Shown piece after piece: positions 697 to 46,312 of a DNA stretch of 47,850 nt. The notes beneath the pieces are model-generated. The model ran no database searches, had not been told where the DNA came from, and saw nothing but the letters and a program-made list of their open reading frames with translations. The translations under genes were made by a program, and so were the position numbers. Positions within the stretch are counted from its first letter, which is position 1; every line of letters starts with the position of its first letter. The stretch is from the NCBI GenBank assembly GCA_011390955.1, contig JAABRM010000056.1, forward strand, positions 1 to 47,850, read 5' to 3'. This DNA comes from Oscillatoriales cyanobacterium (GTDB lineage Bacteria > Cyanobacteriota > Cyanobacteriia > Cyanobacteriales > Laspinemataceae).

Positions 697-3153
697 TTAT
701 GGTGAATTTGGGTGAGATGATTCCTGGTGGGAGATCCCCTGGAGCACTTCTGGGAACAGATTAATACTTTGTTCCAATCGCTCGATTTCAAAGTCGTTGT
801 AAAACACCGCTAATTTTTTGGCATAATTTAATAAATTCTGGGAGCGATATTCTACGGCCAATGTTTGCAAGTCCGCAATAAATTGATGAATTTCTTGCCA
901 AATCATCGTTTTGTGCAAAGTCGGCCAAACTTCTTCCTCCTGTTGCCTAAGTTTACTCAGCAATTCTGATAATCTTTCTGGATTCTCTAAGGGACTGAAG
1001 TCTTTATCTTCATCAATGGATAAGAATAAATTGATCTCGTTGCTACTGGTATGAAGCATAGAACTTTCACTGTCGCTTGGTTCCGGAGAATTGCTGACTG
1101 GTGAATCGGGCTTACTCCTAGTAGTTTTCGGGGCGATCGGAAAGATTTTGTTCATGGCCATAATTAATTGACTCCGACTCACGGGTTTAGAAACAAACCC
1201 ATTACATAAAGAGTTCAGATGCTTTTGTTGAATTTCAAATATGGCCGCACTGAGAAAAATAATCGGAATCTCTTGGGTCGCTGAATTAGATTTAAGCGAT
1301 CGCGCCACTTCTTCTCCATCCGCATTGGGCATCCGCAAATCCAAAAAAATTAAATCTGGACAAGATGCCTGCACCATTTCTAAGGCTTGAACCCCATCTT
1401 CGGCCAACCAAACGTGATGAATTGTATTATCAAAATATCCCTGAATCAAGAGTCTATTGGACAAAACATCATCCACCACCAAAATATTCAGGGGCGGAAA
1501 ACTATTCAGATCGAAATTTTCTTCCCCAGGGGCGATCGCTGGATTAAATAATTCAATTCCCGCCACTTCAGGAAAATTTAAAGTAAACTTAGAACCTTTA
1601 CCCAGGTCACTACTGATAGAAATCGTGCCACCGAGTAATTCAGTTAACCGCTGAGTAATAGTTAACCCTAAACCCGTCCCGCCGTACTTCCGCACATTTT
1701 GCCCTTTACTTTGGCGAAATTCTTGAAAAATCTCCGTTTGTTGACTCGGACTAATCCCAATTCCCGTATCTTCAACAATCACAGTTAAGTCACAAACTTT
1801 AGACGCCTCACTCTTCTCTAAGCCCGCTTTAGCAACCCCGATCGCTGAACTAAAAACTTGCACCTTCACCGACCCTTTTTCGGTAAATTTTATCGCATTG
1901 CCAATCAGATTTACCAAAATTTGTTGCAGTCTAAACTCATCAAAGATAATTCCTGAAGGGACAGACCGATCCAGCGCAAATACTAAAGATAATCCTTTGG
2001 CTTCAGCGGACTGAATAAACATACTTCCGATCTCATTCATAAAATTAACCAGATTGAAAGCTTGGTAGGTTAATTCCAGTCTACCGGATTCAATTTTAGA
2101 TAAATCTAGAATATCCTCGATTAACCGTTGTAAATTTTTGCCACTAGAAGTAATTCCCTGCAAATAAGACTGAGCCTTTTTGTCTTCAATAAAACTTTGG
2201 AGCAGTTCACTAAATCCCAAAATAGCATTCAGCGGCGTGCGAATTTCGTGACTCATATTCGCCAAAAATTCACTTTTCGCCCGGTTCGCCTCATCTGCCG
2301 CGATCTTGGCTTGTTTGAGATCATCTTCCATTTCCTTGCGCTGAGTAATATTCTGAATCTGCCAGATTAAATAAAGAGGTTGACCCTCCGCATTTCGCAT
2401 CAAAGATATACTCAACCAAACCCAAATGACTGATTGATTCTTATGGATTAATCGCCTTTCCATGTCATAATTAGAAATCTTCCCCGAACAGAGATCGGCT
2501 AATTCTAACTCATCTAAATTTACATCCTCTGGGTGGGTAATGTCTTTGACGTTTAATGGCAAAAATTCCGAGGCAGAATACCCCAACATTTGCTTTAGAG
2601 AAGCATTGACTTTTAAGAACTGCCCGGAGAGATCCACTAAGCACATCCCCACAGCAGCACTTTCAAAGATATTTCTAAACAGCCGTTCACTTTGTTCTCG
2701 CTGTTTAATTTCACCTTCTAACTGAGTTTTTTCTTCCTGAAGTTTTTGTTTGAGATATTTTAGGCTGAGTTGATGCTTAATTCGCACGATCGCCTCTTCA
2801 ATTTGAAAAGGTTTAGTAATATAATCAGCCCCACCCACCGTAAAGGCTTTGATTTTATCAATCGGTTCGTCGAGGGCACTGAGAAATATAATGGGAATTT
2901 CTTCAGTTTTGGGATCTGATTTTAACTGCTGGCAAACTTCATAGCCGTTGATTTCCGGCATCATAATGTCGAGCAAAATCAAATCTGGCCCGGTATTTTT
3001 CGCCACAGCAATGGCTAAACTGCTTTGGGTGGCAGGCCGAACTTTATACCCTTGTTGACTTAACATTTGCACCAACAAACGTAAATTCTCAGGATTATCG
3101 TCTACCAATAGAATATTAGTTTGGGGGTTAGATTCTGTGAGATTAATAGTCAT
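697..3153 (-). CDS. Hybrid sensor histidine kinase (REC-PAS-HisKA-HATPase-REC)
   Basis: Soluble two-component hybrid kinase of 818 residues with no membrane segment. Domains in order: receiver 1 (about 12-125, phospho-acceptor Asp62 in LLDIMMP, conserved Lys in YITKPF), a coiled linker (128-155), PAS (about 157-272), HisKA dimerisation domain (His302 in MSHEIRTPLNA), HATPase (N box around Asn419, EDTGIGIS, GGTGLGL), receiver 2 (about 555-675, Asp605 in FLDLRMP), and a helical tail of about 140 residues that may be a degenerate phosphotransfer module. A receiver at the N-terminus means it can itself be the target of another kinase. The gene lies 344 bp downstream of the giant kinase on the same strand, so the two may share a signalling pathway (inference). 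The signal is unknown. Confidence 0.93.
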   Translation of the reverse strand: MTINLTESNPQTNILLVDDNPENLRLLVQMLSQQGYKVRPATQSSLAIAVAKNTGPDLILLDIMMPEINGYEVCQQLKSDPKTEEIPIIFLSALDEPIDKIKAFTVGGADYITKPFQIEEAIVRIKHQLSLKYLKQKLQEEKTQLEGEIKQREQSERLFRNIFESAAVGMCLVDLSGQFLKVNASLKQMLGYSASEFLPLNVKDITHPEDVNLDELELADLCSGKISNYDMERRLIHKNQSVIWVWLSISLMRNAEGQPLYLIWQIQNITQRKEMEDDLKQAKIAADEANRAKSEFLANMSHEIRTPLNAILGFSELLQSFIEDKKAQSYLQGITSSGKNLQRLIEDILDLSKIESGRLELTYQAFNLVNFMNEIGSMFIQSAEAKGLSLVFALDRSVPSGIIFDEFRLQQILVNLIGNAIKFTEKGSVKVQVFSSAIGVAKAGLEKSEASKVCDLTVIVEDTGIGISPSQQTEIFQEFRQSKGQNVRKYGGTGLGLTITQRLTELLGGTISISSDLGKGSKFTLNFPEVAGIELFNPAIAPGEENFDLNSFPPLNILVVDDVLSNRLLIQGYFDNTIHHVWLAEDGVQALEMVQASCPDLIFLDLRMPNADGEEVARSLKSNSATQEIPIIFLSAAIFEIQQKHLNSLCNGFVSKPVSRSQLIMAMNKIFPIAPKTTRSKPDSPVSNSPEPSDSESSMLHTSSNEINLFLSIDEDKDFSPLENPERLSELLSKLRQQEEEVWPTLHKTMIWQEIHQFIADLQTLAVEYRSQNLLNYAKKLAVFYNDFEIERLEQSINLFPEVLQGISHQESSHPNSP

Positions 3154-3497: not shown

Positions 3498-6400
3498 TTA
3501 TGTCTTTTTTTGGGCATCTTGAATTAATTGGAAAATTTCCACATAAGCAAAATTATTGGCTAAATCTGCGAGAGTTTCCGCTAGGGTGGGATTATGGTGG
3601 CGAATTTCTGCCAGAGTCGCCGCAATGTTTTCCATGTCACATTCTTGCACCGCTGAAGCCAATCGATCTAGTAATTCCGTCGGCTGCATACCGAGAGCCC
3701 CTAGGGTATTGCTAGAATCTGGGACTTCCGCAACGGTGACAGGTGTTCCTCGATCCCAAATAAAATTTACCCCCAGATGTTGTGCCAAAACGGTAAAAAT
3801 ATCGATTTCGCGGAAGGGTTTGCGAATAAAATCATCGCATCCTGCGGCTAAAACCAGGATCCGGTCTTGGTCAAAAACACTAGCAGTTAGGGCAACGATC
3901 GCTGTGGCTTGTCCTTTAATTGTAGATTTGATTTCTTTGGTGGCTTTGTAACCGTTCATTATCGGCATTCGCAAATCCATAAAAATTAAATGAGGTTCCC
4001 ACTGTTGCCAAATCGCGATCGCTTCTTGACCATTACTTGCTTCTCGGAGTGCAAACCCCAGGGGACTGAGTAATTTGATTAGCAATTGTCGATTATCAGC
4101 GCGATCGTCTACTAATAAGATCCGATAAGTGGGTTGGTTGGGGGTTAAAGCTACTACACGGCGATCCCTGGGTTTGGTTTCCCCTGTAACTGAATCTACC
4201 AGTTTGACATCAATTTCAAAGCGAAAACAACTGCCCCGATCTACTTGAGAGGAGACGGTAATCTCACCCCCCATCATTTGCACAAATTTTTGGCTAATAG
4301 CTAACCCTAACCCCGTCCCTTCTTGAGCTTTTTTGCCCGTTTCAGTTTGGACAAACGCTTGAAACAGGCGATCGCATTCTTCCGGATTAATTCCTGGTCC
4401 AGTATCTTCCACTTCAAAGAAAATTCGGCAGAACGGATCGAACAGACAAAACTGAGAATTATTTGAATTATCCTGGATTCCTCCTCTGACAGATATGCCG
4501 CCGGTTTCGGTAAATTTGATCGCATTATTCAACAAATTGATCAAAACTTGCTGTAACTTCATCGAATCTGCCTGCACATATTGCGGTAGGTCTGGACTCA
4601 TCGCCAAAGTTAAAATCAAACCTTTCTGTTTCGCCTTAAGATAAAATAGATTTTCCGTATCTTTAAGCAATTGATGTAAATCAAAATCTTGGAAATTTAA
4701 AGTTTCGCGGCCTGCTTCAATTTTGGCCAAATCCAAAACATCGTTAATCAGTTGCAGCAGATGTTCTCCACTGCGTTGAATAATCTGTAAATTTTCTAGG
4801 TCATTTCTCGCCAAATTAGCACTATGAGTCATCAATTGCGTGAAGCCTAAAATTGCATTCAATGGCGTGCGTAACTCGTGACTCATGTTCGCTAAAAATG
4901 TACTTTTGGCTTGATTGGCTTTTTCGGCCAATTCTGTGGCTTTGGCTAAATCTTCCGTGCGTTTTTGCACTTGATTTTCCAGGATCCGGTTGTAATCTGC
5001 CAGAAGTTTTTCCGCTTGTTTTCGTTCGGTAATATCTGTAAAAGAAGTCACCGCATAAGTAACATTTCCTCGAGGATCAAATATGGGATGCGATCGCACT
5101 TCTAAAAATCGGGAATCGCCCGATGAACCACGAACTTCCATATCATCAATCAGGACTATTTCCCCTTTAAGCGATCGTAAAGCCGGATTCTTAGCTTCTG
5201 GATAAGGCTCATCAGTTCCAGCCACATAAATCTGATAAACCTCAGCAATTTCGGCGGGAGAAACTTCCGGTTTAGCCTCTTGACCCATGAGTTTTTTGCC
5301 CGTTTCATTCAAATAAATCACTCGTCCGGTCATGTCATGGACTGACACCCCTACCGGCAGAGACTCTAAAATTTGATTTAACTTCGCTTCACTCCCTTGT
5401 ACCTCTGTATAAAGTTTAGCATTTTCTAGGGAAATTGCCGCTTGAGATGCCAATAAATTTAACACCGTCAATCTTTCTTTGGTAAATGCCCCCGTAGTCA
5501 GATCGTTCTCCAAATAAAGAATCGCCACTAACTTCCCTTGATTCAGCAAAGGCAAACACAAAATCGATTTAGACTGCCGTTTAATAAGATCGGGATCGCC
5601 GGTAAAATTTCCCTGATTCAGCGCATCATCTAAAACTACCGTTTCTTGACTGCGGATTGCATAGTTGACAATGGCTTGAGAAATATTTGCCGGAAAACTA
5701 ATTTGTTCTACTAAATCTAGAGGATTTGACGGCAAAATATCTCCATGTTTGGCCGAAAAACTGACAGCAGCAGAAACTACCCATTCGCCATTTTGTTCTA
5801 AAAGTAAATAACCTTGAGTGGCTCCAGCATTTTCCATTAAAATATTCAGCAGATTTTTTACCAAATTTGGCAAGATAATTTCTCCAGCCAAAGCTTGAGA
5901 AGCTTTAATAATACTGGTTAAATCAATTTGGCTACTTAAACTTTGACTAGATAACAGTGAATTTTCTTTAACCAAAACATCCTGATTAGTTCCTTTTTTC
6001 AGAAAAATTTCCGGCCAAAATCGAGCATACCGCCGATCTAAATCTGCCACCTTCGCCTCTGCCCCCCACCGCTGATAAGTATAGCGGGCTTCCTGTAAAT
6101 AATTTCTAGCAAAATTATCCATTCCCCGCGCCAAATAAAACTCACCGGCTAACTCGAATCCCAAAGCTTGTTCTTGGATATATTTGTGTTGAATTGCTCC
6201 TTTAATTGCCGCTTCATATAGTTCGGCTGCTTGCCAAGATTTACCGATCGCTTGTGATTTTTCTGCCTCGACTAACTGCCACTTATGTAAATAATTCATT
6301 GGCGCATGGTCAGCCCAATTTTTTAAATCAGCTTGATTCTGATTCACAATAGCTAAAATTTCTAACTGTGCCGCTGCTGACCGACTCGGATAAACCGCTA

Positions 6401-9400
6401 ATAGAGCCAAAGACTGATAAAATTGGTAGTAAGTAAATGGAAATAATCCCACAATTCCTTTAGCATTTTGCGCGGCTAAATCCGCATACGCGATCGCAGC
6501 TTCATAATCTTTGAATAAATAATTCAACATCGTTGAGGTGAGATAAAAACAATAAACAGAAGACAGATTTTGGATTTCGATCAACCGGGGCAAAGTTTGC
6601 TCGCGATCGAAAACTGCACCGTCTAGGTTTTTCGGATCCTTAGATTGCCCCCGCAAGTTGCACAGATATTGCAGCCAAATTTGAGTATAATAAAGTTGGA
6701 AATTTTGTTGCAGACTTTCGATTAATTGTAAATAAGGAGTAATTTTATCAGAGGCGATCGCTAAATTTTCTTCCAGTAAAGCCACATTGTGACAATAGTT
6801 AACCGCTGCATAACAAGTAAATTCTATTTCTCCAGTTTCTAATCCCACCGGGATAGTTTTCTGCCGTAACGGTTCCAGGGCTAAACTAGCGTGTTCTTTC
6901 CAATGGATAATAAAGGAGTAAAATTTATTCGTAACTCGACAATAAATTTCGCGGGCGCAAAATTTATCCAAAACTTTTAGGGCTAACTTGCCAAATTGAT
7001 AGCCTAATTCAATTTCTCCTAACACCCCACATAATAATAGCCCATACAATCCATAAGCATAAGCCGCCAGGGGATCGTTGCCATAAGTGACACATAAATC
7101 CACCATTGTATAAGCCAATGAAGGTAATAAACTAGGTTCCGTGACATAGATCGGCCCAAACAACATCATTAAAACCCGCATTCCCGCTTGGCTATAAGCA
7201 TCCGTCATTAGTGGCAGGTGATAAAGCGGTTCAACCTGCAAACCTACGGGAGGTTCTTTTTTTAAAGATATCTGTAACACATTGGTCAAGAAAAATATCC
7301 CAGTCTCTAAGGCTTTATTCATTTGATTTTGGGCACTGTAAGATAAAATCTTGATTAAATAACTTCTCACTTTATCCAAAGCAGAATTCGCTTCGATTTT
7401 GACAAGTTCCGCTAATTTATCTATTTGGGCATAGTTACCGAGTAAATATTCGGTTTCGGCTAATTCTGTATAGACTTCTAAAGTTAACTCATATTGCGTC
7501 TGCCAGCTATCTTCCGGTAACAGGTTCAAAGCAATATTGAGATACTGCACAGCGGAGTTGTAAGCATTGGCGGCTTTCGCCTTTTTCCCCGCCGCTAAAT
7601 TTAATTGGATTAACTCTAATTTTTCCGAAAAATTATCAATTAAATTTAAACCTTGATTAAACTGATAAACCACATCAAATATTACCGAGTCTAAACTTGC
7701 TGCTGGGGTGTTGGCTAAAAGTAATCGACCAATTTTTAAGTGAGTGGCTTGTTTTTGCTGCTCATCAATCAGTGAATAGGCAGCTTGTTGTACTCGGTCG
7801 TGGATAAAATCAAGTCTGATTTCGCGGGCGGTTTCGTGGAGGCTATCCCCTGAGTTTCCCGCAGTGATTAATTGATAGCTATCGCTCTCTGGGCAAATTA
7901 AACCCATATCCAAAGCCGGTGACAAGTCAGCGAAAACTTGAACAGGTAGGCTTTCTGCCACGATCGCTAAAGTTTCCAAATCAAAACTATTGCCAATACA
8001 AGCTGCCCATTGCAAAATTTGCTGAGTTTTAGCCGTTAATTTACTGATTTTTGCGGCCATTAATTCTACCACATTATCAGAAAAATTCTTCTTCTGAATT
8101 TGGGATATATCCCAAATCCACTCACTCTTAGCTTGGGAAAAAGTTACTAGATTCTCTGCAATCAAGGCTTGCAAAAACTGCCTGGTAAAAAAAGCATTGC
8201 CTTGGGTTTTTTGATAAACTAAATCAGTTAAACTTTCTATATTTTTCTGGTTTTGACGATGCAATGAATCGCGGATCAATGCCTTAACGTCATCCGGGCG
8301 TAAATTCTCTAAAGTAATCACCGAGATTTGACCGCCGTTTTTCTGAATATTGTCTAAAGTCAGCATCAAAGGATGAGTAGCATTAACTTCATTATCCCGA
8401 TAAGCCCCAATCACCATTAAATGATGCAAACGCTGATTGGTGACAATCATCTCTAGCAGCCTTAATGAGGCTCGATCTGACCATTGTAAATCATCAATAA
8501 ATAAAACTAACGGGCGATCGGGCTGACATAATGTCTGGATAAAATCGTTAAAGACTAATTCAAACCGATTTTGCGCTTCTTGAGTGCCTAAATGATCTAC
8601 GGGGGGTTGTTTACCGATGATTAATGCCAAATCAGGAATCACATCAATTAACACTTGACCATTTTTGCCCACCGCTTTCTGTAATCGCTGTTGCCATTGG
8701 TTAAAAATTTCCGTTTTTTCGGCGAGGATTTGCTCGCAAAGTTCGTAAAAAGCTTCGGTAAAAGCCAGATATGGCGTATGCCGCTGATATTGGTCAAATT
8801 TGCCCGCAATAAAATAACTTTGACGAGCCGTAATTGGTTTTTGGATTTCTCTGACTAAAGCAGATTTTCCAACGCCAGAATAGCCCGCAACTAAGCATAA
8901 TTCGACTTGAGATTCGGGGGTAGAATCGATCCGCTCGAAAGTATTCAGGATAACGGCTACTTCTTTTTCTCTGCCGTATAATTTTTGGGGTATTTGAAAT
9001 TTTTCATAAAAATCTGGCTGGCATAAAATAAAGGATGTAATGCAGCCTTGACTTTGATATTGCCGTAAACATTCGCCTAAATCGGCTTGAATTGCCTGAA
9101 CCGATTGATAGCGGTCTTCCGCATTTTTTTGCATCAATTTGAGAATAATCTCGGAAACCACTGGAGGAACTTGCGGGGCAATTTGTTGAGGGGGAATTGG
9201 TTCTTTGGCTATATGACTATGGATGATTTCTAAAGCATCTTCACTGGGAAATGGCAGTTGTCCGGTTAACAGGTGATAAAATGTGACCCCTAATGAATAA
9301 AAATCAGTCCGATAGTCGATATCTCGATTCATGCGTCCGGTTTGTTCCGGGGCCAGATATGGCAGGGTGCCTTTTAAGCGATTCGGATGTTGAAAACTGG

Positions 9401-9899
9401 CTCTTTCCTGTGACAAAAGGGTGGCTAACCCAAAATCAATCAGTTTAATTTCTTGGGTGTTGGGGTTGAGTACCAAGTTACTGGGGTTAATATCTTTGTG
9501 GATGATTTTTTGACTATGAACTGATTCAATGATTTGCGCGATCGCGATCGCTAATGAGAGAAACTTGTCTAAAGATAATTTCCCCAGGATGCCCAACTGG
9601 GTTAAATCCGTGCCGCCAAAATCTTCTAAAATCATCCCATAGCGATCGCTGAAAACCCCAGATTTTTGGCTTTCAAAGCGACCAAATTCATAAACTTTAA
9701 TCACCCCAGGGAGGTGTAAGCTTTTGGTGATTTCATAAGCCCGCTGAAACTGAGCAATTTTTTCCGGGACTGGGTAGCGATCGCTCAACAATTTCAGCAT
9801 AATCGGTCGTTCATCAGATATCCGCGTCCCCCGATAAACTTCCGAGTTACTACTTTGATAAATAATCTCTCTGAGATGGTAATTAGCAATTTTAAGCAT
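3498..9899 (-). CDS. HstK-type dual kinase: Ser/Thr kinase-ATPase-GAF-PAS-histidine kinase-receiver
   Basis: Giant soluble signalling protein of 2133 residues when started at 9899. Domains: eukaryotic-type Ser/Thr kinase (about 7-280; Lys36, HKDINPSN at 134-141, DFG at 155-157, APEQTGRM activation segment); AAA/STAND-type ATPase (YGREKE about 308; Walker A GYSGVGKS 339-346; Walker B LVLFIDDLQWSD); a long helical TPR-like region; GAF; PAS; HisKA (His1674 in MSHELRTPLNA); HATPase (about 1770-1900); receiver (Asp1975 in MDLRMP); helical tail. This matches the HstK family of cyanobacteria. The frame stays open upstream to 10202, but that extension only translates low-complexity repeat DNA rich in NNQQ, so MLKIANYHL is taken as the start. 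No ribosome site is visible there. Partners and signal are unknown. Confidence 0.92.
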   Translation of the reverse strand: MLKIANYHLREIIYQSSNSEVYRGTRISDERPIMLKLLSDRYPVPEKIAQFQRAYEITKSLHLPGVIKVYEFGRFESQKSGVFSDRYGMILEDFGGTDLTQLGILGKLSLDKFLSLAIAIAQIIESVHSQKIIHKDINPSNLVLNPNTQEIKLIDFGLATLLSQERASFQHPNRLKGTLPYLAPEQTGRMNRDIDYRTDFYSLGVTFYHLLTGQLPFPSEDALEIIHSHIAKEPIPPQQIAPQVPPVVSEIILKLMQKNAEDRYQSVQAIQADLGECLRQYQSQGCITSFILCQPDFYEKFQIPQKLYGREKEVAVILNTFERIDSTPESQVELCLVAGYSGVGKSALVREIQKPITARQSYFIAGKFDQYQRHTPYLAFTEAFYELCEQILAEKTEIFNQWQQRLQKAVGKNGQVLIDVIPDLALIIGKQPPVDHLGTQEAQNRFELVFNDFIQTLCQPDRPLVLFIDDLQWSDRASLRLLEMIVTNQRLHHLMVIGAYRDNEVNATHPLMLTLDNIQKNGGQISVITLENLRPDDVKALIRDSLHRQNQKNIESLTDLVYQKTQGNAFFTRQFLQALIAENLVTFSQAKSEWIWDISQIQKKNFSDNVVELMAAKISKLTAKTQQILQWAACIGNSFDLETLAIVAESLPVQVFADLSPALDMGLICPESDSYQLITAGNSGDSLHETAREIRLDFIHDRVQQAAYSLIDEQQKQATHLKIGRLLLANTPAASLDSVIFDVVYQFNQGLNLIDNFSEKLELIQLNLAAGKKAKAANAYNSAVQYLNIALNLLPEDSWQTQYELTLEVYTELAETEYLLGNYAQIDKLAELVKIEANSALDKVRSYLIKILSYSAQNQMNKALETGIFFLTNVLQISLKKEPPVGLQVEPLYHLPLMTDAYSQAGMRVLMMLFGPIYVTEPSLLPSLAYTMVDLCVTYGNDPLAAYAYGLYGLLLCGVLGEIELGYQFGKLALKVLDKFCAREIYCRVTNKFYSFIIHWKEHASLALEPLRQKTIPVGLETGEIEFTCYAAVNYCHNVALLEENLAIASDKITPYLQLIESLQQNFQLYYTQIWLQYLCNLRGQSKDPKNLDGAVFDREQTLPRLIEIQNLSSVYCFYLTSTMLNYLFKDYEAAIAYADLAAQNAKGIVGLFPFTYYQFYQSLALLAVYPSRSAAAQLEILAIVNQNQADLKNWADHAPMNYLHKWQLVEAEKSQAIGKSWQAAELYEAAIKGAIQHKYIQEQALGFELAGEFYLARGMDNFARNYLQEARYTYQRWGAEAKVADLDRRYARFWPEIFLKKGTNQDVLVKENSLLSSQSLSSQIDLTSIIKASQALAGEIILPNLVKNLLNILMENAGATQGYLLLEQNGEWVVSAAVSFSAKHGDILPSNPLDLVEQISFPANISQAIVNYAIRSQETVVLDDALNQGNFTGDPDLIKRQSKSILCLPLLNQGKLVAILYLENDLTTGAFTKERLTVLNLLASQAAISLENAKLYTEVQGSEAKLNQILESLPVGVSVHDMTGRVIYLNETGKKLMGQEAKPEVSPAEIAEVYQIYVAGTDEPYPEAKNPALRSLKGEIVLIDDMEVRGSSGDSRFLEVRSHPIFDPRGNVTYAVTSFTDITERKQAEKLLADYNRILENQVQKRTEDLAKATELAEKANQAKSTFLANMSHELRTPLNAILGFTQLMTHSANLARNDLENLQIIQRSGEHLLQLINDVLDLAKIEAGRETLNFQDFDLHQLLKDTENLFYLKAKQKGLILTLAMSPDLPQYVQADSMKLQQVLINLLNNAIKFTETGGISVRGGIQDNSNNSQFCLFDPFCRIFFEVEDTGPGINPEECDRLFQAFVQTETGKKAQEGTGLGLAISQKFVQMMGGEITVSSQVDRGSCFRFEIDVKLVDSVTGETKPRDRRVVALTPNQPTYRILLVDDRADNRQLLIKLLSPLGFALREASNGQEAIAIWQQWEPHLIFMDLRMPIMNGYKATKEIKSTIKGQATAIVALTASVFDQDRILVLAAGCDDFIRKPFREIDIFTVLAQHLGVNFIWDRGTPVTVAEVPDSSNTLGALGMQPTELLDRLASAVQECDMENIAATLAEIRHHNPTLAETLADLANNFAYVEIFQLIQDAQKKT

Positions 9900-9900
9900 A

Positions 9901-10245
9901 ATTGTTATTTGTTGGTTGTTGTTTGTTGGTTGTTGATTGTTGGTTGTTGGTTGTTCTTTGTTCTTTGTTGTTTGTTGTTTGTTGTTTGTTGCTTGTTGAT
10001 TGTTGATTGTTGATTGTTGATTGTTGATTGCTGCTTGTTGATTGCTCCTCTGCACCAGAAGCTCCTCTGCACCAGAAGCTCCTCTGCACCAGAAGCTCCC
10101 TACACTCCACACCCTCTTAGCAACCAACAAATAACAAATAACCAACAACCAAAGAATCCCTACCCAACAAATAACAAATAACCAACAACCAACAATCAAC
10201 AATCAACCAACAACAAATAACTAATAACTAATAACCAACAACAAA
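9901..10245. repeat. Heptad repeats in inverted arrangement at the kinase start
   Basis: From 9901 to about 10042 the plus strand is built of imperfect 7-bp units of the TTGTTGA/TTGTTGG kind. From about 10110 to 10245 it carries the complementary kind (CAACAAT, CAACAAA). The right half also has a near-exact direct repeat of about 30 bp (about 10121-10152 and 10161-10193). The two halves flank a 17-bp triplication and could pair into a long imperfect hairpin immediately upstream of the kinase ATG. Confidence 0.8.
10044..10094. repeat. Three exact copies of a 17-bp tandem repeat
   Basis: The unit GCTCCTCTGCACCAGAA is repeated three times without change (10044-10060, 10061-10077, 10078-10094) in the centre of the inverted heptad array. 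Exact identity suggests recent expansion. Confidence 0.95.
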
Positions 10246-16800: not shown

Positions 16801-17208
16801 ATGAGTGAAACCCTGACAACGATTCCCCATAAATTTATTGGGGTTGCCGTGATTTGGAACGATCGCGGACAAATTTTAATTGACCGCCGCAAAGCATCTG
16901 GACTTCACGGCGGTTTATGGGAATTTCCCGGCGGCAAAATTGAACCGGGAGAAACGGTAGAAGCTTGTATTCAGCGAGAAATTCGGGAAGAGTTAGGAAT
17001 TGCGATCGCCGTAGAGGCGCACTTGATTACTGTAGAGCACGCTTATTCTCATTTTCGAGTTTCCCTGATGGTGCATCATTGCCGTCACTTGGCGGGGGAA
17101 CCGCAACTGTTAGAATGTGATGAAGTTCGCTGGGTCAACTTGGATCGGTTGGATCAATTTCCCTTTCCCGAAGCAAATGTAAAGATTATTGAGGCGTTGA
17201 AGGGCTAA
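16801..17208 (+). CDS. mutT: Nudix hydrolase, MutT-type 8-oxo-dGTP diphosphatase
   Basis: Sanitises the nucleotide pool by hydrolysing oxidised purine triphosphates. At 135 residues it is close to E. coli MutT (129). The Nudix box is complete (GGKIEPGE, then REIREELGI), placing the metal-binding glutamates. The N-terminal strand IGVAVIWNDRGQILIDRR and the FPGGKIEPGE context are MutT-typical. The 3' end overlaps the convergent cyclase gene by 23 bp, so the two transcripts must share antisense sequence. Substrate choice within the Nudix family is inferred. Confidence 0.88.
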   Translation: MSETLTTIPHKFIGVAVIWNDRGQILIDRRKASGLHGGLWEFPGGKIEPGETVEACIQREIREELGIAIAVEAHLITVEHAYSHFRVSLMVHHCRHLAGEPQLLECDEVRWVNLDRLDQFPFPEANVKIIEALKG

Positions 17209-19201
17209 CTAAAGCCAAAGATTTTTTGCCAACTAGCCAATAAGTGATCATTTCTCCCCGACCCTTGACCGAAATAGTTCCCCTGGGTTCTAAGATATAT
17301 TGGTTTTTTAAATGGGCATAAGTTGTTTCTGTCACCTGAATATAGCCCGGTTTGCCGTGAGATTCCATGCGAGAGGCCACATTCACCGCATCGCCCCACA
17401 GGTCATAAATAAATTTCTTGATGCCAATGACCCCGGCAATTACCGGGCCGGTGTTAATGCCAATGCGGATTTGCAGGTTATGGCCTAAATTGTTGGGTAC
17501 GTTGGCCATGTAAGCTTGCATTTCTAAGGCCATTTCCGCGATCGCGATCGCATGATCCCCACGGGCAATCGGTAATCCCCCGACCACCATATAAGCATCC
17601 CCAATGGTTTTAATTTTTTCTAAGCCATACTTTTCCGTCAACCCATCAAAGGCGGAGAAAATTTGATTTAGTCCGGCCACTAATTGCATCGGTTCCATCT
17701 CCGCCGAAAGACTGGTAAATCCGACAATATCCGCAAACAGAATGGTCACTTCTTCAAAATGTTCCGTGGGGGATTCATCTCTTTTTAAGCGATCGGCAAT
17801 TTCCACCGGCAAAATATTCAGTAAAAGTTCTTCCGATCGCTCTTTTTCTTGACTCAATTGCCGCGTGCGTTGTTCCACCCGGTTTTCTAATTCTTCATTC
17901 GCTAAACGTAAAGCTTCTACGGAATCTTTTAGTTGTGCGGTCATCCAATTAAAAGAACTGCCCAATCGATCCACTTCAATAATCGGACTAGGTTGAATAT
18001 ATTGATTCAAATCACCATCGGCCATCGCTTTTGAAGCTGTGGTAATTTGTTGGATGGGATCGGTAATCCATCTCACGGTCAACATCCCAAAAGCGATCGC
18101 CACAGCCAATGCCACCAAACACAACAAAAATGTATTGCGAGTATTCTCATTGATGCGATCCATAAAGTCCGCTTCCGGGACAACCACCACAATCAACCAA
18201 TTCAGCCCATATTCATCTCTCAGAGGAGAAACTTTCAGAAAATAGCGTTGATTTTCCAGTTGAAAAGCTAAAGGAATCGCCTTTTTAAGGTTGGGCAAAT
18301 CCTGAATTTGGCGGCGGAGAGACTCGATACTCGCACGCATAATGGGATCGCTACTTTCTTGGGCGGTCAGACGCTTTTGGGAACTATCTTTGCCCACAGT
18401 TAGGGGTTGGTCTGGCAAAGAACTAGCAATAAGTTCTCCCGAAGGTTCTATCACAAACACCTGACCGGACCGCCCCACCTGCAACGTCTGCAAAAAAACC
18501 TGAATTTGATCCAGTCCCATTTGACAAGTGAAAATCCCCAGCAAATTTCCCTGCTCATCGTAGTAGGGAGAACTGGCGTTAATTTGTAGTGAACCATAGC
18601 CAAAATTAATATAAACTTCACTCCAAGCGGCTCGATTATTTTGCCGCACCGTCTCATAAAGGGGACGCTTACGGACATCATAATTCGGAGTCTTTTTAGC
18701 CACCTCAGTGGGATTACCATTCTGGTCAAGTTGGTAATAAATTAAATCGCCGGTTCCCCATTCTAATTGTTCGGCCAGTTGGGGTTGTTCGTCCCCCACC
18801 GAACGGTTGACCCAGCCAATGCGTAAATATTGTCCATCCTCGTTCCCTATTCCCGCATGACCAATGGTGGGAAAACGCTGCACCTGGTTCCAAAAATAAC
18901 GCCGCAAATAGTCTCTATCGATGGCTAAGTCATAAAAATCTAGCAACCCTAACCGCGCCGCATCTTCATTGATTTGATTTACCAGGGGTGGTTTAGCCAG
19001 ATAGACTTGAACCCGCTCTCTAACTCGAGCACTAATTTCCCCTTGTAGCTGACCCACTAAGTCCGTGACAACCCGTTGACCGTTGCGGAAAGAAAGATAT
19101 CCCACTAAGCCAACGGTGGCGATAATTTGGAGCAGAAACGGGGCAATAAGAGTGGTGCGGAGCAAAAATTTGCCCGTACTGGCTGATTTGGGTAGGGTCA
19201 T
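17186..19201 (-). CDS. Membrane adenylate cyclase (dCache-HAMP-class III cyclase)
   Basis: Inner-membrane receptor cyclase of 671 residues making cAMP. It has one TM near 13-37, a large extracellular dCache-like sensor domain (to about 350), a second TM (about 355-378, LLCLVALAVAIAFGML), HAMP, a coiled coil, and a class III catalytic domain (about 481-655). Metal aspartates are Asp491 (FADIVGF) and Asp535 (TIGDAYM). The purine-selecting pair is Lys531 and Asp600 (IKTIGD, YDLWGD), which predicts ATP rather than GTP. The transition-state residues Asn607 and Arg611 (NVASRM) are present, so the domain should be active as a homodimer. The ligand is unknown. The 3' end overlaps mutT by 23 bp, and the ABC exporter gene ends 38 bp upstream of its start on the same strand. 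Confidence 0.93.
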   Translation of the reverse strand: MTLPKSASTGKFLLRTTLIAPFLLQIIATVGLVGYLSFRNGQRVVTDLVGQLQGEISARVRERVQVYLAKPPLVNQINEDAARLGLLDFYDLAIDRDYLRRYFWNQVQRFPTIGHAGIGNEDGQYLRIGWVNRSVGDEQPQLAEQLEWGTGDLIYYQLDQNGNPTEVAKKTPNYDVRKRPLYETVRQNNRAAWSEVYINFGYGSLQINASSPYYDEQGNLLGIFTCQMGLDQIQVFLQTLQVGRSGQVFVIEPSGELIASSLPDQPLTVGKDSSQKRLTAQESSDPIMRASIESLRRQIQDLPNLKKAIPLAFQLENQRYFLKVSPLRDEYGLNWLIVVVVPEADFMDRINENTRNTFLLCLVALAVAIAFGMLTVRWITDPIQQITTASKAMADGDLNQYIQPSPIIEVDRLGSSFNWMTAQLKDSVEALRLANEELENRVEQRTRQLSQEKERSEELLLNILPVEIADRLKRDESPTEHFEEVTILFADIVGFTSLSAEMEPMQLVAGLNQIFSAFDGLTEKYGLEKIKTIGDAYMVVGGLPIARGDHAIAIAEMALEMQAYMANVPNNLGHNLQIRIGINTGPVIAGVIGIKKFIYDLWGDAVNVASRMESHGKPGYIQVTETTYAHLKNQYILEPRGTISVKGRGEMITYWLVGKKSLALVSPSTPQ

Positions 19202-28799: not shown

Positions 28800-30596
28800 A
28801 TGGTTGACCTAGTTAAGTTCCAAGGCAATAGCGGTAATCGCTTACCTCCACAAAATATCGAAGCGGAGGAATCAATTTTAGGCGCCATATTGCTCGACCC
28901 GGAAGCTATCAGTATGGTGGCAGATATTCTGCCCAAAGACGCCTTTTCTATCACTGCCCACCAAGAAATTTATCAAGCTTGTTTAACCCTCCAACTTCAA
29001 GGGAAACCTACGGATTTGATGACCGTCACCACTTGGTTATCCGATCGCAAGATTTTAGAAAAAATTGGCGGTCAAATTAAATTAGCCCAACTGATCGATC
29101 GCACCGTTTCCTCGGTGAATATTGACCTGTATGCTTTGTTAGTAGTTGATAAATGGATTCGCCGCAAATTAATCCATGCGGGTCACGAAATTGCCGAACT
29201 AGGATATGATACCGCTACGGAATTACCCCAAATCTTAGATAAAGCAGAACAAACCATCTTTGGACTGACCCAAGAACGCCCCCAACAAGGGCTAGTTTCT
29301 ATCTCCGAAACCCTGATTCAAACCTTTGAAACTATTGAAATTTATCAGCAAGGTTTAGCACTTCCGGGACTGCCTTGTGATTTTTATGATTTAGATGCCA
29401 TGACTGGCGGTTTTCAACGTTCAGATTTAATTATTGTCGCCGGTCGTCCTTCAATGGGCAAAACCGCATTTTCTATCGGCGTTGCTTATAATATTGCCTC
29501 AATTCATCAGTTGCCCGTGGCAATTTTTAGTTTAGAAATGTCCAAAGAACAGTTAGTACAACGGATGCTTTCAGGAGAGGCAGGAATTGAAAGTAATCGG
29601 CTGCGATCGGGTCGCATTAGCCAGAATGAATGGGAACCTTTAAGTCGGGCGATCGCTACTTTATCAGAACTGCCAATATTTATTGACGATAGCCCCAATC
29701 CTACGGTGACAGAAATTCGCTCCAAATGTCGGCGGCTTCAGTCAGAGCAAGGGGGAAAGTTAGGATTAATTTTGATCGATTATTTACAATTAATGGAGGG
29801 AAGTAGTCCAGATAATCGAGTTCAGGAATTATCCAGAATTACTCGCGGACTCAAAGGTTTAGCCCGGGAATTGAATGTGCCGATTATTACTTTATCTCAG
29901 CTTAGTCGTGGGGTTGAATCCCGCACGAATAAGCGACCGATGATGTCAGATTTGCGCGAGTCTGGTTGTTTAACCGGAGATACTTTAATTCCTTTAGTGA
30001 ATCATCGGCATCAGCAGCTACCGATTCGAGACTTTATCGACAAAATCGGTAAATCTCGGTTGAAAGTTTGGGCAGTGAATGAAGCAACGATGATGTTAGA
30101 ACCTGCCCTGGTTCATCATGCTTTTGCTACGGGAGTTAAACCCGTATTTAAACTAACTACCCATGATGGGCGATCGCTTCGGGCAACAGGAAATCACAAG
30201 TTTCTCACAATGGCTGGGTGGCAAAGGTTGGATGAATTGGCGATCGGCGATCGCATCGCCATTCCCATCGATCGATTCCAGGAATCCTTGCAGTATTTTA
30301 AAATTTATTGGGATGAAATCATCTCCATAGAGACAGATGGAGAAGCAGAAGTTTATGACCTAACCGTGGATATTCATCACAACTTTGTGGCTAATAATAT
30401 CATCGTTCACAACAGCATCGAGCAAGACGCGGATTTAGTGATTATGTTGTATCGAGAAGAGTATTACAATCCCGATACCCCCGATCGCGGCATTGCGGAG
30501 GTGATTATTACTAAACATAGAAATGGGCCAACAGGAACGGTGAAATTATTGTTTGATTCCCAGGTGACTAAATTTAGGAATTTAGCCAGAAGATAA
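28800..30596 (+). CDS. dnaB: Replicative DNA helicase DnaB containing an intein
   Basis: Hexameric helicase that unwinds the replication fork. The precursor is 598 residues; without the intein the mature protein is 449, the normal size. The N-terminal DnaB domain begins at PPQNIEAEESILGAILL. The RecA-like domain has Walker A GRPSMGKT (about 215-222), FSLEMSKEQL, and Walker B LILIDYLQLM. The intein interrupts the conserved DLRESG-SIEQDADLV segment between residues 389 and 539. No strong ribosome site is seen before the ATG. Correct splicing should be required for a working helicase. Confidence 0.97.
   Translation: MVDLVKFQGNSGNRLPPQNIEAEESILGAILLDPEAISMVADILPKDAFSITAHQEIYQACLTLQLQGKPTDLMTVTTWLSDRKILEKIGGQIKLAQLIDRTVSSVNIDLYALLVVDKWIRRKLIHAGHEIAELGYDTATELPQILDKAEQTIFGLTQERPQQGLVSISETLIQTFETIEIYQQGLALPGLPCDFYDLDAMTGGFQRSDLIIVAGRPSMGKTAFSIGVAYNIASIHQLPVAIFSLEMSKEQLVQRMLSGEAGIESNRLRSGRISQNEWEPLSRAIATLSELPIFIDDSPNPTVTEIRSKCRRLQSEQGGKLGLILIDYLQLMEGSSPDNRVQELSRITRGLKGLARELNVPIITLSQLSRGVESRTNKRPMMSDLRESGCLTGDTLIPLVNHRHQQLPIRDFIDKIGKSRLKVWAVNEATMMLEPALVHHAFATGVKPVFKLTTHDGRSLRATGNHKFLTMAGWQRLDELAIGDRIAIPIDRFQESLQYFKIYWDEIISIETDGEAEVYDLTVDIHHNFVANNIIVHNSIEQDADLVIMLYREEYYNPDTPDRGIAEVIITKHRNGPTGTVKLLFDSQVTKFRNLARR
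29967..30413 (+). other. DnaB mini-intein, 149 residues, no homing endonuclease
   Basis: Class 1 protein-splicing element at the site used by the well-known Synechocystis DnaB intein. Cys1 (CLTGDTLIPL) starts it, the block B TxxH is in RATGNHKFLT, block F is VYDLTVDIHHNFVANNIIVH, and the last residue is Asn after His. The next extein residue is Ser, giving the Cys/HN/Ser set needed for splicing. There are only about 30 residues between GWQRLDEL and IYWDEI, so no LAGLIDADG endonuclease is present. It is a naturally minimal intein. Confidence 0.95.
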
Positions 30597-42580: not shown

Positions 42581-44051
<1,471 letters not shown>

Positions 44052-44143
44052 TAATTTCGGATTGTAGCATCGACTGTGGACTAGATGAGAATCGCTCCCA
44101 ATATTTTCATATTTTGTTACGGTCTGGTGGGGAGCAGAGGGAA

Positions 44144-44253
44144 TAATTGATAATTGATAATTGATAATTGATAATTGATAATTGATAATTGATAATTGAT
44201 TTCCCCTGCCCCCCTGCACCCCTACACCCTACACCCTACACCCTACACCCTAC
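44144..44253. repeat. Two heptamer arrays: TAATTGA x8 and CCCTACA x4-5
   Basis: Eight exact TAATTGA units (44144-44199) are followed by a C-rich link and four CCCTACA units plus one variant (44220-44254). They occupy the spacer between the thiC riboswitch and the broken small membrane gene. The rest of 44052-44350 shows a short AAATTCTCTA duplication and no gene. Confidence 0.95.
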
Positions 44254-44350
44254 TTGATCTCCTAGCGGATTTGGCGATAAAATAAAGCTTTAGACTTATG
44301 CGATCGCACAAATTCTCTAAAATTCTCTAAAATGGGGTTAAATTTTAAGC

Positions 44351-44563
44351 GTGCTATTAACGGATAATTTGCCTTTAATCGTCTGTTTAACGGTGCTTCA
44401 CTGTGCGGTGGGTACGGCGGCGGGTTTGTTGGCCAAACGTAAGGGGAAAAATTTTCCTCTGTGGCTGTTGTAATGCCATCCGGCACGCTGCGCGAACGGT
44501 TTGATTGGCGGAACTTTTGCCTTAATTGCCGCTTTTTTAGTGCCAAGTAAACAGCCCCAATAA
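44351..44563 (+). pseudogene. Small membrane protein gene split by a 27-nt insertion
   Basis: From GTG at 44351 the frame reads VLLTDNLPLIVCLTVLHCAV, then GTAAGLLAKRKGKNFPLWLLL, and stops at TAA (44471). After exactly 27 bases the same frame resumes with GLIGGTFALIAAFLVPSKQPQ and stops at 44561-44563. Joined, the halves give a two-helix membrane protein of about 61 residues with a K/R-rich loop between helices, a common small cyanobacterial layout. The inserted bases add an in-frame stop, so only the first helix is now made. No good ribosome site is seen. The original function is unknown. Confidence 0.7.
44471..44497. mobile_element. 27-nt small dispersed repeat interrupting the membrane gene
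   Basis: The insert runs from TAATGCCATCC to GCTGCGCGAAC. Its reverse strand (GTTCGCGCAGCGTGCCGG) has the look of the small GTTCGCG..AGCGTGCC repeat frequent in Nostoc-like genomes. Its removal restores a continuous frame. It is the same length as the gloB insert but different in sequence. Confidence 0.65.
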
Positions 44564-44595: not shown

Positions 44596-45093
44596 ATGTT
44601 TCACAAAGATTTAAACAGTATTACCGAACGTCTAGGCAATAGTCTCAAGCGAGATGTGCTGGTGCAAAAAACGTTATATGATATTCGCGATTTTTTGCAA
44701 GCCGATCGGATTGTTCTGTATTATTTTTATCGCCAGTGGAAAGGTCAAGTAACCGCTGAATCTTTGCGCGATCCAGAATTGTCTATTTTTGGCTCTACCG
44801 GCGCCGATGATTGTTTTAACGATCGATATGCTGCCTTATACCAAGCGGGAAGATATCGGGCGATCGCAGATGTTGACATCGAGCCAATTCACGAATGTCA
44901 TCGAGATTTTCTCATCAGTATTCAGGTGAAAGCGAATTTAGCAGTGCCGGTTTTGGTGCAGCAAAATCTTTGGGGTTTGCTAATTGCCCATGATTGCCAA
45001 AAATCCCATTATTGGTCAAATTCAGAGATAGAATTTATGCAAGTACAAGCGCAAATGTTGGCCATGAGTTCGGCACTGGTAAATCAGTCATAG
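44596..45093 (+). CDS. Stand-alone GAF protein, candidate DXCF-type cyanobacteriochrome
   Basis: A 165-residue protein that is one complete GAF domain and nothing else. It starts with the usual amphipathic helix (SITERLGNSLKRDVLVQKTL) and the strand ADRIVLYYF. It then has D71-x-C73-F74 (DDCF), YQAGRYRAIADVDI, the chromophore-type Cys101-His102 (ECHRDFL), VKANLAVPVL and LWGLLIAHDC. Both cysteines of DXCF cyanobacteriochromes are present, 28 residues apart, the spacing known for TePixJ. It should bind a bilin covalently and sense light (inference). There is no output domain, so it would act by binding a partner. It starts 32 bp after the broken membrane gene. Confidence 0.85.
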   Translation: MFHKDLNSITERLGNSLKRDVLVQKTLYDIRDFLQADRIVLYYFYRQWKGQVTAESLRDPELSIFGSTGADDCFNDRYAALYQAGRYRAIADVDIEPIHECHRDFLISIQVKANLAVPVLVQQNLWGLLIAHDCQKSHYWSNSEIEFMQVQAQMLAMSSALVNQS

Positions 45094-45139: not shown

Positions 45140-46312
45140 CTATGGGAAATATTGGAAAAAATTAAACACATTGGGTAATTGTTGGCTGAGAAAATCCGCA
45201 TCATGTCCCGCTGAGGCGATCGCATGATATTCTATAGTAATATTCTCCCCATGATGCTGCACCAATGCCTCATAAAATAGACGACTTTGTTCCGGGGGAA
45301 CGATCGCATCATCGGCGCCATGAGCCAAATATAATGGCATGATCCATTCCGGCGATCGCTTTTGAGGATTATCTCGCCCCGTCCACCGTTCGGGAAACTG
45401 ATAAAATGAGCCATAAACCGCCGTCATTAAGTTATCATTGGGCAGATTTTCCTGACTAAAATCTCCAGCCAAACTCGCACCAGCCACAAATAATCCGGGA
45501 TTTTCTAAGGCAATTAAAGCCACCCCTCTGCCCCCGGTAGAAAATCCTAGCAAGGTATTATGAGAACCGGGTTTTAACAGGTGATGTCGCTGTTGGATTG
45601 TGGGAATAAACCGTTCTTGGATAAACTTGCCTCCGGGTAAAGAATTCCACCTCATTTCTGTTTCTGGATAATAGGCACTTTCATAAATAGTCATCAACAT
45701 TTCTGGTAAAATTAAGGCATATCCATATTGATTAGCATATTCCACCAACGGTGTATCTTCTACCCATCTAGTGCGGGGATAATTCCAACCGGGCAATACT
45801 AAAACCACGGGTAAAATTTGATGGCTATCAGAATTTTTGCTATAGTTGGGAGGAATATATAAATCATAAGGGACATCATCCACCATGAGATTTTTATTCC
45901 AGCCCGTTGTGGCTTCAGTTAGTTCTATTTTATGTAAATCTGCGGGATTTTCCCGGATGGGTTTTGGTGAATTTTCTCTGGTTGGCGAAATCATGGGCTG
46001 AATTTGTTGGTTACTGGTGGATGTGGGGGCATTTTTCGCCACCTCAAATTGCGAACAACCGGCGATCGCAAAAAAGCATAGCCAGCTAATTCCTAAGTAC
46101 GTGAACATAATTAATTGCACTTTTCGTTTCCCACCGTAAATCCTTGGATTCCCGCCGGAGTTTACCCCCGCGAAGGCCGCCATCGGCGGGAATGACAGTT
46201 TTTCTTCTGATATGGTCTGTAGTGCATTTATTTCTGCCCACCTACTTAAATAGTGAATTCCCTTGACCGAGAAATGTCTTAGAAGCGATCGCCGCTTTGA
46301 ATAGTGATTCAC
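45140..46312 (-). CDS. Lipoprotein alpha/beta-hydrolase (esterase-like) with MITE-altered N-terminus
   Basis: The mature part is an alpha/beta hydrolase of the esterase/PHB-depolymerase kind: LPVVLVLPGWNYPRTRW, nucleophile elbow GFSTGG (Ser), acid in AHGADDAIVP, and His in ASAGHDADF. Before it stands a hydrophobic stretch ISWLCFFAIAGC ending in a lipobox Cys, then a Ser/Pro-rich linker, as for an envelope lipoprotein. Residues 22-72 of the long form are encoded by a 155-bp MITE. Without it the protein would begin with a normal basic n-region (SKRRSLLRHFSVKG) joined to YLGISWLCFFAIAGC. Today translation could start at 46312 (88-residue leader) or at 46108 inside the element (MFTYLGISW). Neither makes an ideal signal peptide. 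The substrate is unknown. Confidence 0.82.
   Translation of the reverse strand: MNHYSKRRSLLRHFSVKGIHYLSRWAEINALQTISEEKLSFPPMAAFAGVNSGGNPRIYGGKRKVQLIMFTYLGISWLCFFAIAGCSQFEVAKNAPTSTSNQQIQPMISPTRENSPKPIRENPADLHKIELTEATTGWNKNLMVDDVPYDLYIPPNYSKNSDSHQILPVVLVLPGWNYPRTRWVEDTPLVEYANQYGYALILPEMLMTIYESAYYPETEMRWNSLPGGKFIQERFIPTIQQRHHLLKPGSHNTLLGFSTGGRGVALIALENPGLFVAGASLAGDFSQENLPNDNLMTAVYGSFYQFPERWTGRDNPQKRSPEWIMPLYLAHGADDAIVPPEQSRLFYEALVQHHGENITIEYHAIASAGHDADFLSQQLPNVFNFFQYFP
46094..46248 (-). mobile_element. 155-bp MITE-like element, copy 2, inside the lipoprotein gene
   Basis: On the minus strand it has the same TAAGTAGGTG and (with one change) CACGTACTTA ends as copy 1 at 33990. It is 144 of 155 bases identical without gaps. 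The net insertion, with a TA duplication, is 153 bp, or 51 codons, and no stop arises in the gene's frame. The single change in its terminal repeat (C to G) is synonymous in that frame. Confidence 0.9.

Follow-up and report, generated by a model that had tools for sequence, protein, structure and literature searches.

A free-standing DXCF-type cyanobacteriochrome GAF protein from an Oscillatoriales cyanobacterium belongs to an old single-copy family

As a rule, a cyanobacteriochrome domain and its output share one polypeptide. A 165-aa open reading frame in the 47,850-nt stretch of Oscillatoriales DNA analyzed here (the window) raises the question of whether a photosensory domain on its own is a complete receptor and, if it is, what reads its signal. 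The first-pass annotation had described this gene as only a GAF domain, with the two cysteines of a DXCF cyanobacteriochrome in DDCF (Cys73) and ECH (Cys101), 28 residues apart. The features of the gene are as follows.

44596..45093, + strand: stand-alone DXCF-type cyanobacteriochrome GAF protein, 165 aa (open reading frame, Pfam GAF, AlphaFold2 model, Foldseek)
44722..44751, + strand: YFYRQWKGQV, residues 43 to 52, part of the stand-alone family signature, in which Y43, Y45, and Q51 are specific (60 stand-alone proteins versus 37 embedded DXCF domains)
44794..44820, + strand: STGADDCFN, residues 67 to 75, the family-specific surroundings of the second Cys (S67, T68, G69, and N75 are unlike most embedded DXCF domains)
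44806..44817, + strand: DDCF motif, residues 71 to 74, with C73 as the second Cys (aligns with DPCF of TePixJ, 3vv4)
44896..44901, + strand: Cys101-His102 (in ECH, residues 100 to 102), the canonical bilin-binding Cys and the following His (aligns with C-H of TePixJ; present in 60 of 60 stand-alone rows)

The frame starts with ATG, and an in-frame stop codon (taa) lies immediately 5' of it, so that an upstream extension of the frame is impossible. A Pfam scan of the protein finds GAF alone (66 bits against a cut-off of 22.4, residues 20 to 157), and the chain between the stops carries no output domain, which bears out the description of the gene as a GAF domain only. The residue positions agree with the two motifs and their 28-residue spacing, and the sequences YQAGRYRAI, VKANLAVPVL, and LWGLLIAH, also picked out at first pass, are all present in the translation.

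The fold is that of a cyanobacteriochrome GAF domain by Pfam, by structure prediction, and by Foldseek. The best AlphaFold2 model, made from the query and 25 relatives, has a mean pLDDT of 89.4 and a pTM of 0.86 (the other four models have mean pLDDT values of 75 to 81). Cyanobacteriochromes are among the best solved matches both by sequence, where the best solved relative has an E value of 7.7e-28, far from anything that chance would give, and by fold. The top entries, 7lsc by sequence and 6mgh by fold, are the engineered single-GAF proteins miRFP670nano3 and miRFP670nano; these are fluorescent proteins that, in the alignments shown, lack a Cys where the 165-aa protein has C73. Foldseek ranks 1 to 16 are occupied by engineered single-GAF fluorescent proteins and a dual sensor histidine kinase, and TePixJ chain 3vv4_B is found at rank 17. 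With the blue/green DXCF domain of TePixJ (PDB 3vv4, 4fof, and 4glq), the protein shares the fold, both cysteines at the same 28-residue distance, and three pocket residues, Asp, Tyr, and His. In an ungapped alignment of residues 31 to 146 to 3vv4_A, D71, C73, F74, Y82, C101, H102, and N114 all match identical residues, which places the second Cys of Asp-Xaa-Cys-Phe and the canonical Cys-His pair at their TePixJ positions and upholds the comparison with TePixJ drawn at first pass, down to the pocket residues proposed for inspection. The two proteins differ in that the TePixJ GAF domain is part of a chemoreceptor, whereas the 165-aa protein is free-standing, and in that the family-specific residues Y43, Y45, and G69 are A, D, and I in TePixJ.

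To see how far the gene extends beyond this genome, we searched 386 genomes of the phylum, source genome included, with profile A1, built from 27 members. In 57 genomes there is exactly one match of at least 212.9 bits each, in open frames of 165 to 213 aa, and 329 genomes have no match at this level, so the stand-alone GAF gene is widespread but patchy. The next match among those listed scores 176.3 bits and is in a 677-aa frame, and the lower ones are listed in frames of at least 383 aa. The gene is present in all 13 genomes of one genus, while in a genus of the source organism's own family, two of eight genomes (G012 and G013, 92 and 87% complete) have longer GAF proteins only. In family f27 (that of genome G075), 36 of 60 genomes have the gene, one copy each, in frames of 181 to 216 aa; this survey overlaps partly with the 386-genome survey. 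Among the matches listed in both surveys, we saw no fused member of the stand-alone family. In a tree with TePixJ and 42 embedded domains, the 60 stand-alone proteins make up one side of a branch with an SH-aLRT value of 100 and a length of 0.65; the tree was made by a quick method and is unrooted (its root is for drawing only), the embedded rows are well-scoring matches from a few genomes rather than a survey of all cyanobacteriochromes, and other cyanobacteriochrome lineages were not deliberately sampled. A single-GAF protein, one clade, and one copy per genome are also what would be expected of an orthologous group that includes the published protein Oscil6304_2705. Based on these results, we conclude that the stand-alone GAF is an old single-copy family and that the domain is truly free-standing here and in its orthologues, as the first reading had it. 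No description of the stand-alone family as such was found in the literature searched, to the extent that its texts were available and with most subscription journals outside its scope.

These data also dispose of the idea that the gene is a fragment of a broken multidomain receptor. GAF domains of longer proteins are indeed common in the source genome: there are 33 GAF matches in all, of which one, the 165-aa frame itself, is in a short frame, and the other 32 are in frames of at least 567 aa. Against a fragment stand the stop codon directly before the ATG, the presence in 57 of 386 genomes of one orthologue each, similar in length and all within one clade, and the pattern of substitution relative to Planktothricoides sp. 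SR001 (30 base differences, with a low simple dN/dS ratio of ~0.29). The SR001 protein is 92% identical, and the source genome is accordingly Planktothricoides-like. We reject this explanation and see practically no chance that it is correct.

Conservation within the family points the same way as the alignment to TePixJ. All 60 stand-alone proteins have C-F and C-H 28 residues apart and retain F74 and H102. The failure of close orthologues to conserve the cysteines, named at first pass as grounds for giving up the assignment, is thus not what the profile survey finds. D-x-C-F and C-H were also present in 46 of 46 loci of a first set, which is biased, as 25 of the 46 were found by peptide patterns that include the DDCF region, and in which a few genomes occur twice. 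Based on alignment, fold, and conservation, the identification of the 165-aa protein as a DXCF-type cyanobacteriochrome GAF is well supported. The Asp of DXCF is more variable. It is kept in 48 of 60 stand-alone rows and replaced in 12, by S (8 rows), E (2 rows), N (1 row), or R (1 row). The tree, in which many forks are weak, calls for at least four such changes. Counted over the 57-genome sample, D-x-C-F is present in 45 and absent in 12 (L101, L103, L108, L118, L122, L123, L127, L128, L129, L131, L136, and L139), all of which keep the Cys. The photocycle may therefore vary within the family, and it is possible that the orthologues without the Asp have a different one.

The supply of chromophore and the behavior of the closest published protein bear on the photocycle of the 165-aa protein. 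The same genome has three Fe_bilin_red genes, among them a PcyA gene (343 bits against a cut-off of 206) and a phycoerythrobilin:ferredoxin oxidoreductase gene (437 bits against 327), and a supply of phycocyanobilin is thus to be expected. Genome G007, which we take to be Oscillatoria acuminata PCC 6304, has 20 matches, and among these only L153 is a short protein with the DXCF Cys at residue 73; in the other 19, the match is further inside a longer frame or lacks D-x-C-F. The abstract of Sato et al. from 2019 reportedly names Asp-71, Cys-73, and His-102 of Oscil6304_2705. Going by these residue numbers and the presumed identity of G007, L153 is presumably the published Oscil6304_2705 and an orthologue of the 165-aa protein. 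In this one-domain protein (found as L024 and L153), D71, C73, C101, and H102 are numbered as in the 165-aa protein; the two are 47% identical, and about half of their residues differ.

According to the available text of a review, PMC10296107, Oscil6304_2705 is a blue/orange photoswitch in which the bond to the second Cys is lost on photoconversion. DXCF domains typically turn phycocyanobilin into phycoviolobilin and have a blue/green photocycle, as the accessible part of PMC11284453 states, and orange photoproducts are also known in the DXCF subfamily (PMC5578081, likewise in its available part). Because its presumed orthologue is blue/orange, a blue/orange photocycle appears more likely for the 165-aa protein than a blue/green one. 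The protein is of a known photoreceptor type, and the photocycle of the presumed orthologue is already published.

We think it probable that the product of the gene is a soluble DXCF cyanobacteriochrome, complete with its one domain, that has a two-Cys photocycle and signals in trans. In such a receptor, C101 would hold phycocyanobilin and C73 would add reversibly to C10 of the bilin in the dark state, so that a blue-absorbing dark state would interconvert with a photoproduct that absorbs at longer wavelengths, most likely in the orange, as that of Oscil6304_2705 does. Since the protein has no output domain and no fusion was seen in the family, the conformational change driven by light would have to be read by a separate protein, one that may dock on the receptor. 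No report of signalling by a one-domain cyanobacteriochrome of this kind was found in those texts of the literature searched that were available. A protein without an output domain or a recurrent partner might instead have no signalling role at all and be a bilin store, a quencher, or a scavenger, or might have lost bilin binding, and the repeated changes of the DXCF Asp on the tree would fit this. We consider it unlikely, given that all 60 rows retain both cysteines and His102 and that the presumed orthologue photoconverts (PMC10296107, from the text available).

The 60 stand-alone proteins were compared with 37 embedded DXCF domains (5 of the 42 embedded domains lack D-x-C-F and were excluded). 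The positions that set the family apart are L13, R19, D20, L22, L41, Y43, Y45, Q51, T53, S67, T68, G69, and N75, together with a tail past the end of the GAF domain. The frequencies in stand-alone versus embedded DXCF proteins are 0.97 versus 0.00 for Y43, 1.00 versus 0.05 for Y45, and 0.90 versus 0.14 for Q51. R19 is in the N-terminal helix, at a position where 84% of the embedded domains have leucine. The N-terminal helix of phytochrome-type GAF domains helps in dimer contacts, so a changed mode of pairing is plausible in proteins with arginine for leucine in this presumed contact helix.

A partner might be sought among neighboring genes. The first-pass annotation had looked to the many kinases and the cyclase nearby for a possible partner. 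The genes that actually flank the GAF gene are both on the opposite strand, and the GAF gene stands alone between them.

42581..43969, - strand: thiC, divergent neighbor, context only (open reading frame, named ThiC by eye from its sequence)
43962..44057, - strand: TPP riboswitch (RF00059) upstream of thiC (72.1 bits against 54.3)
45140..46312, - strand: esterase-like protein, convergent neighbor, context only (Pfam Esterase PF00756, 33.5 bits against 22)

The riboswitch is the only Rfam match above threshold in the window. Upstream of the GAF gene there are also an array of TTGATAA heptads (44147 to 44200, + strand) and a small frame (44342 to 44563, + strand) that resembles a short hydrophobic protein and has one in-frame stop, with the same stop in L038. 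We rejected the array as a regulatory array of the GAF gene, as its 33-base pattern is found throughout the genome (257 forward and 222 reverse matches, 479 overlapping exact matches in total). Elsewhere in the window, an open reading frame at 28800 to 30596 (+ strand) resembles the replicative helicase DnaB and, judged by eye from its translation, apparently contains a small intein.

The kinases and the cyclase of the window are at 697 to 3153, 3498 to 10202, and 17186 to 19201, which is 25 to 44 kb from the GAF gene and hardly nearby, with many unrelated genes between. We therefore screened 944 open reading frames of at least 70 aa around 86 orthologues (some genomes are represented twice), ~6 kb on each side. 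The query for the histidine kinase catalytic domain matched 6 frames in 4 loci, with a match beside the GAF gene only in L141 and L144; the receiver query matched 8 frames in 6 loci; and the cyclase query matched none of the 944. Apart from being encoded in the same window, a kinase or cyclase partner has in its favor that a receiver-domain protein and a histidine kinase adjoin the orthologue, on the opposite strand, in genus g53 (L141 and L144), and that an OmpR-type response regulator follows the GAF gene in genus g36 (L146 to L148). Despite these adjacent signalling genes, no kinase or cyclase neighbor recurs across the 86 orthologues. We reject a kinase or cyclase as neighbor and partner at this locus, and it is very unlikely that the partner is one of those encoded in the window.

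The same loci provide no universal conserved neighbor of any kind among the 86 (some genomes again twice), so that of the two things to be sought in other genomes, stand-alone orthologues and conserved neighbors, only the former was found, in 57 of 386. What recurs is confined to single lineages, and the neighbor families, ndhH included, were named on one member each. A Methyltransf_28 gene is downstream in 16 of 57 loci (directly in 10), and a GatD-like gene is at position -1 in 9 of 57, all in family f27. In 14 of 57 loci, the GAF gene is flanked on each side by a frame on the opposite strand (counting frames of at least 70 aa, of which some are probably spurious).

The most suggestive neighbor is ndhH, which immediately precedes the GAF gene, in the same orientation, in 13 of the 57 sampled loci, all in f27 (NdhH is confirmed by NCBIfam in L111 and assigned by clustering in the others). 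In Anabaena sp. PCC 7120, alr3355 is ndhH (PMC8147232 and PMC12923008, in the parts available). The available text of PMC4788461 describes Alr3356 as a cyanobacteriochrome that is a direct FurA target, positive by electrophoretic mobility shift assay (EMSA), and whose gene is 3.94-fold up on FurA depletion. Since the alr3356 tag follows that of ndhH and the order ndhH-GAF recurs in 13 loci, Alr3356 is likely an orthologue of the stand-alone GAF, as judged from gene order. The two loci differ in that the gene at 44596 to 45093 is not beside ndhH. In genus g36 only, petH (of the CpcD type by NCBIfam in L146) is upstream of the GAF gene, as the nearest frame in L146 and L148 and one frame further away in L147, and an ndhF-like frame, named by eye, is two or three frames upstream of the GAF gene in L146 to L148. 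We tentatively suggest that the iron link and the ndhH and petH neighbors are one place to look for a partner.

Taken further, these neighbors would make the protein a bilin photoreceptor that acts on photosynthetic electron flow through NDH-1 or FNR, as a light- and iron-gated regulator of cyclic electron flow. The position of ndhH in 13 loci, the petH and ndhF-like frames in L146 to L148, and the regulation of Alr3356 by FurA (PMC4788461, as above) are all consistent with this. However, the ndhH adjacency is limited to one family and that of petH to one genus; 232 to 654 bp separate ndhH from the GAF gene, which speaks against a single operon; different neighbors are found at the other loci, the one at 44596 to 45093 included; and the genes in question were chosen after the fact. 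Nor was a canonical Fur box found upstream of the orthologues: over 57 upstream regions the mean best match was 11.56 of 19, compared with 11.52 in first-order Markov shuffles, using a 19-base consensus from which real FurA sites may be too degenerate to be detected. We rejected a Fur box on this basis, and a role in electron flow seems to us improbable. A bolder version, to which we give slightly less credence still, is that the unfused single-copy family is a diffusible light messenger, raised at low iron and switched by blue and orange light, that docks via its N-terminal helix, the Y43/Y45 hairpin, and the C-terminal tail on NDH-1 or FNR. If this were true, a photoreceptor would control a metabolic complex with neither a two-component nor a cyclic-nucleotide step in between.

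The point of interest is the lack of an output domain throughout the family. The replacement of the Asp with retention of the Cys in 12 of 57 orthologues is a natural test of the role of the Asp. A widespread family that stays one-domain implies an undiscovered partner, and with a protein of 165 residues, signalling in trans by a bilin photoreceptor becomes testable.
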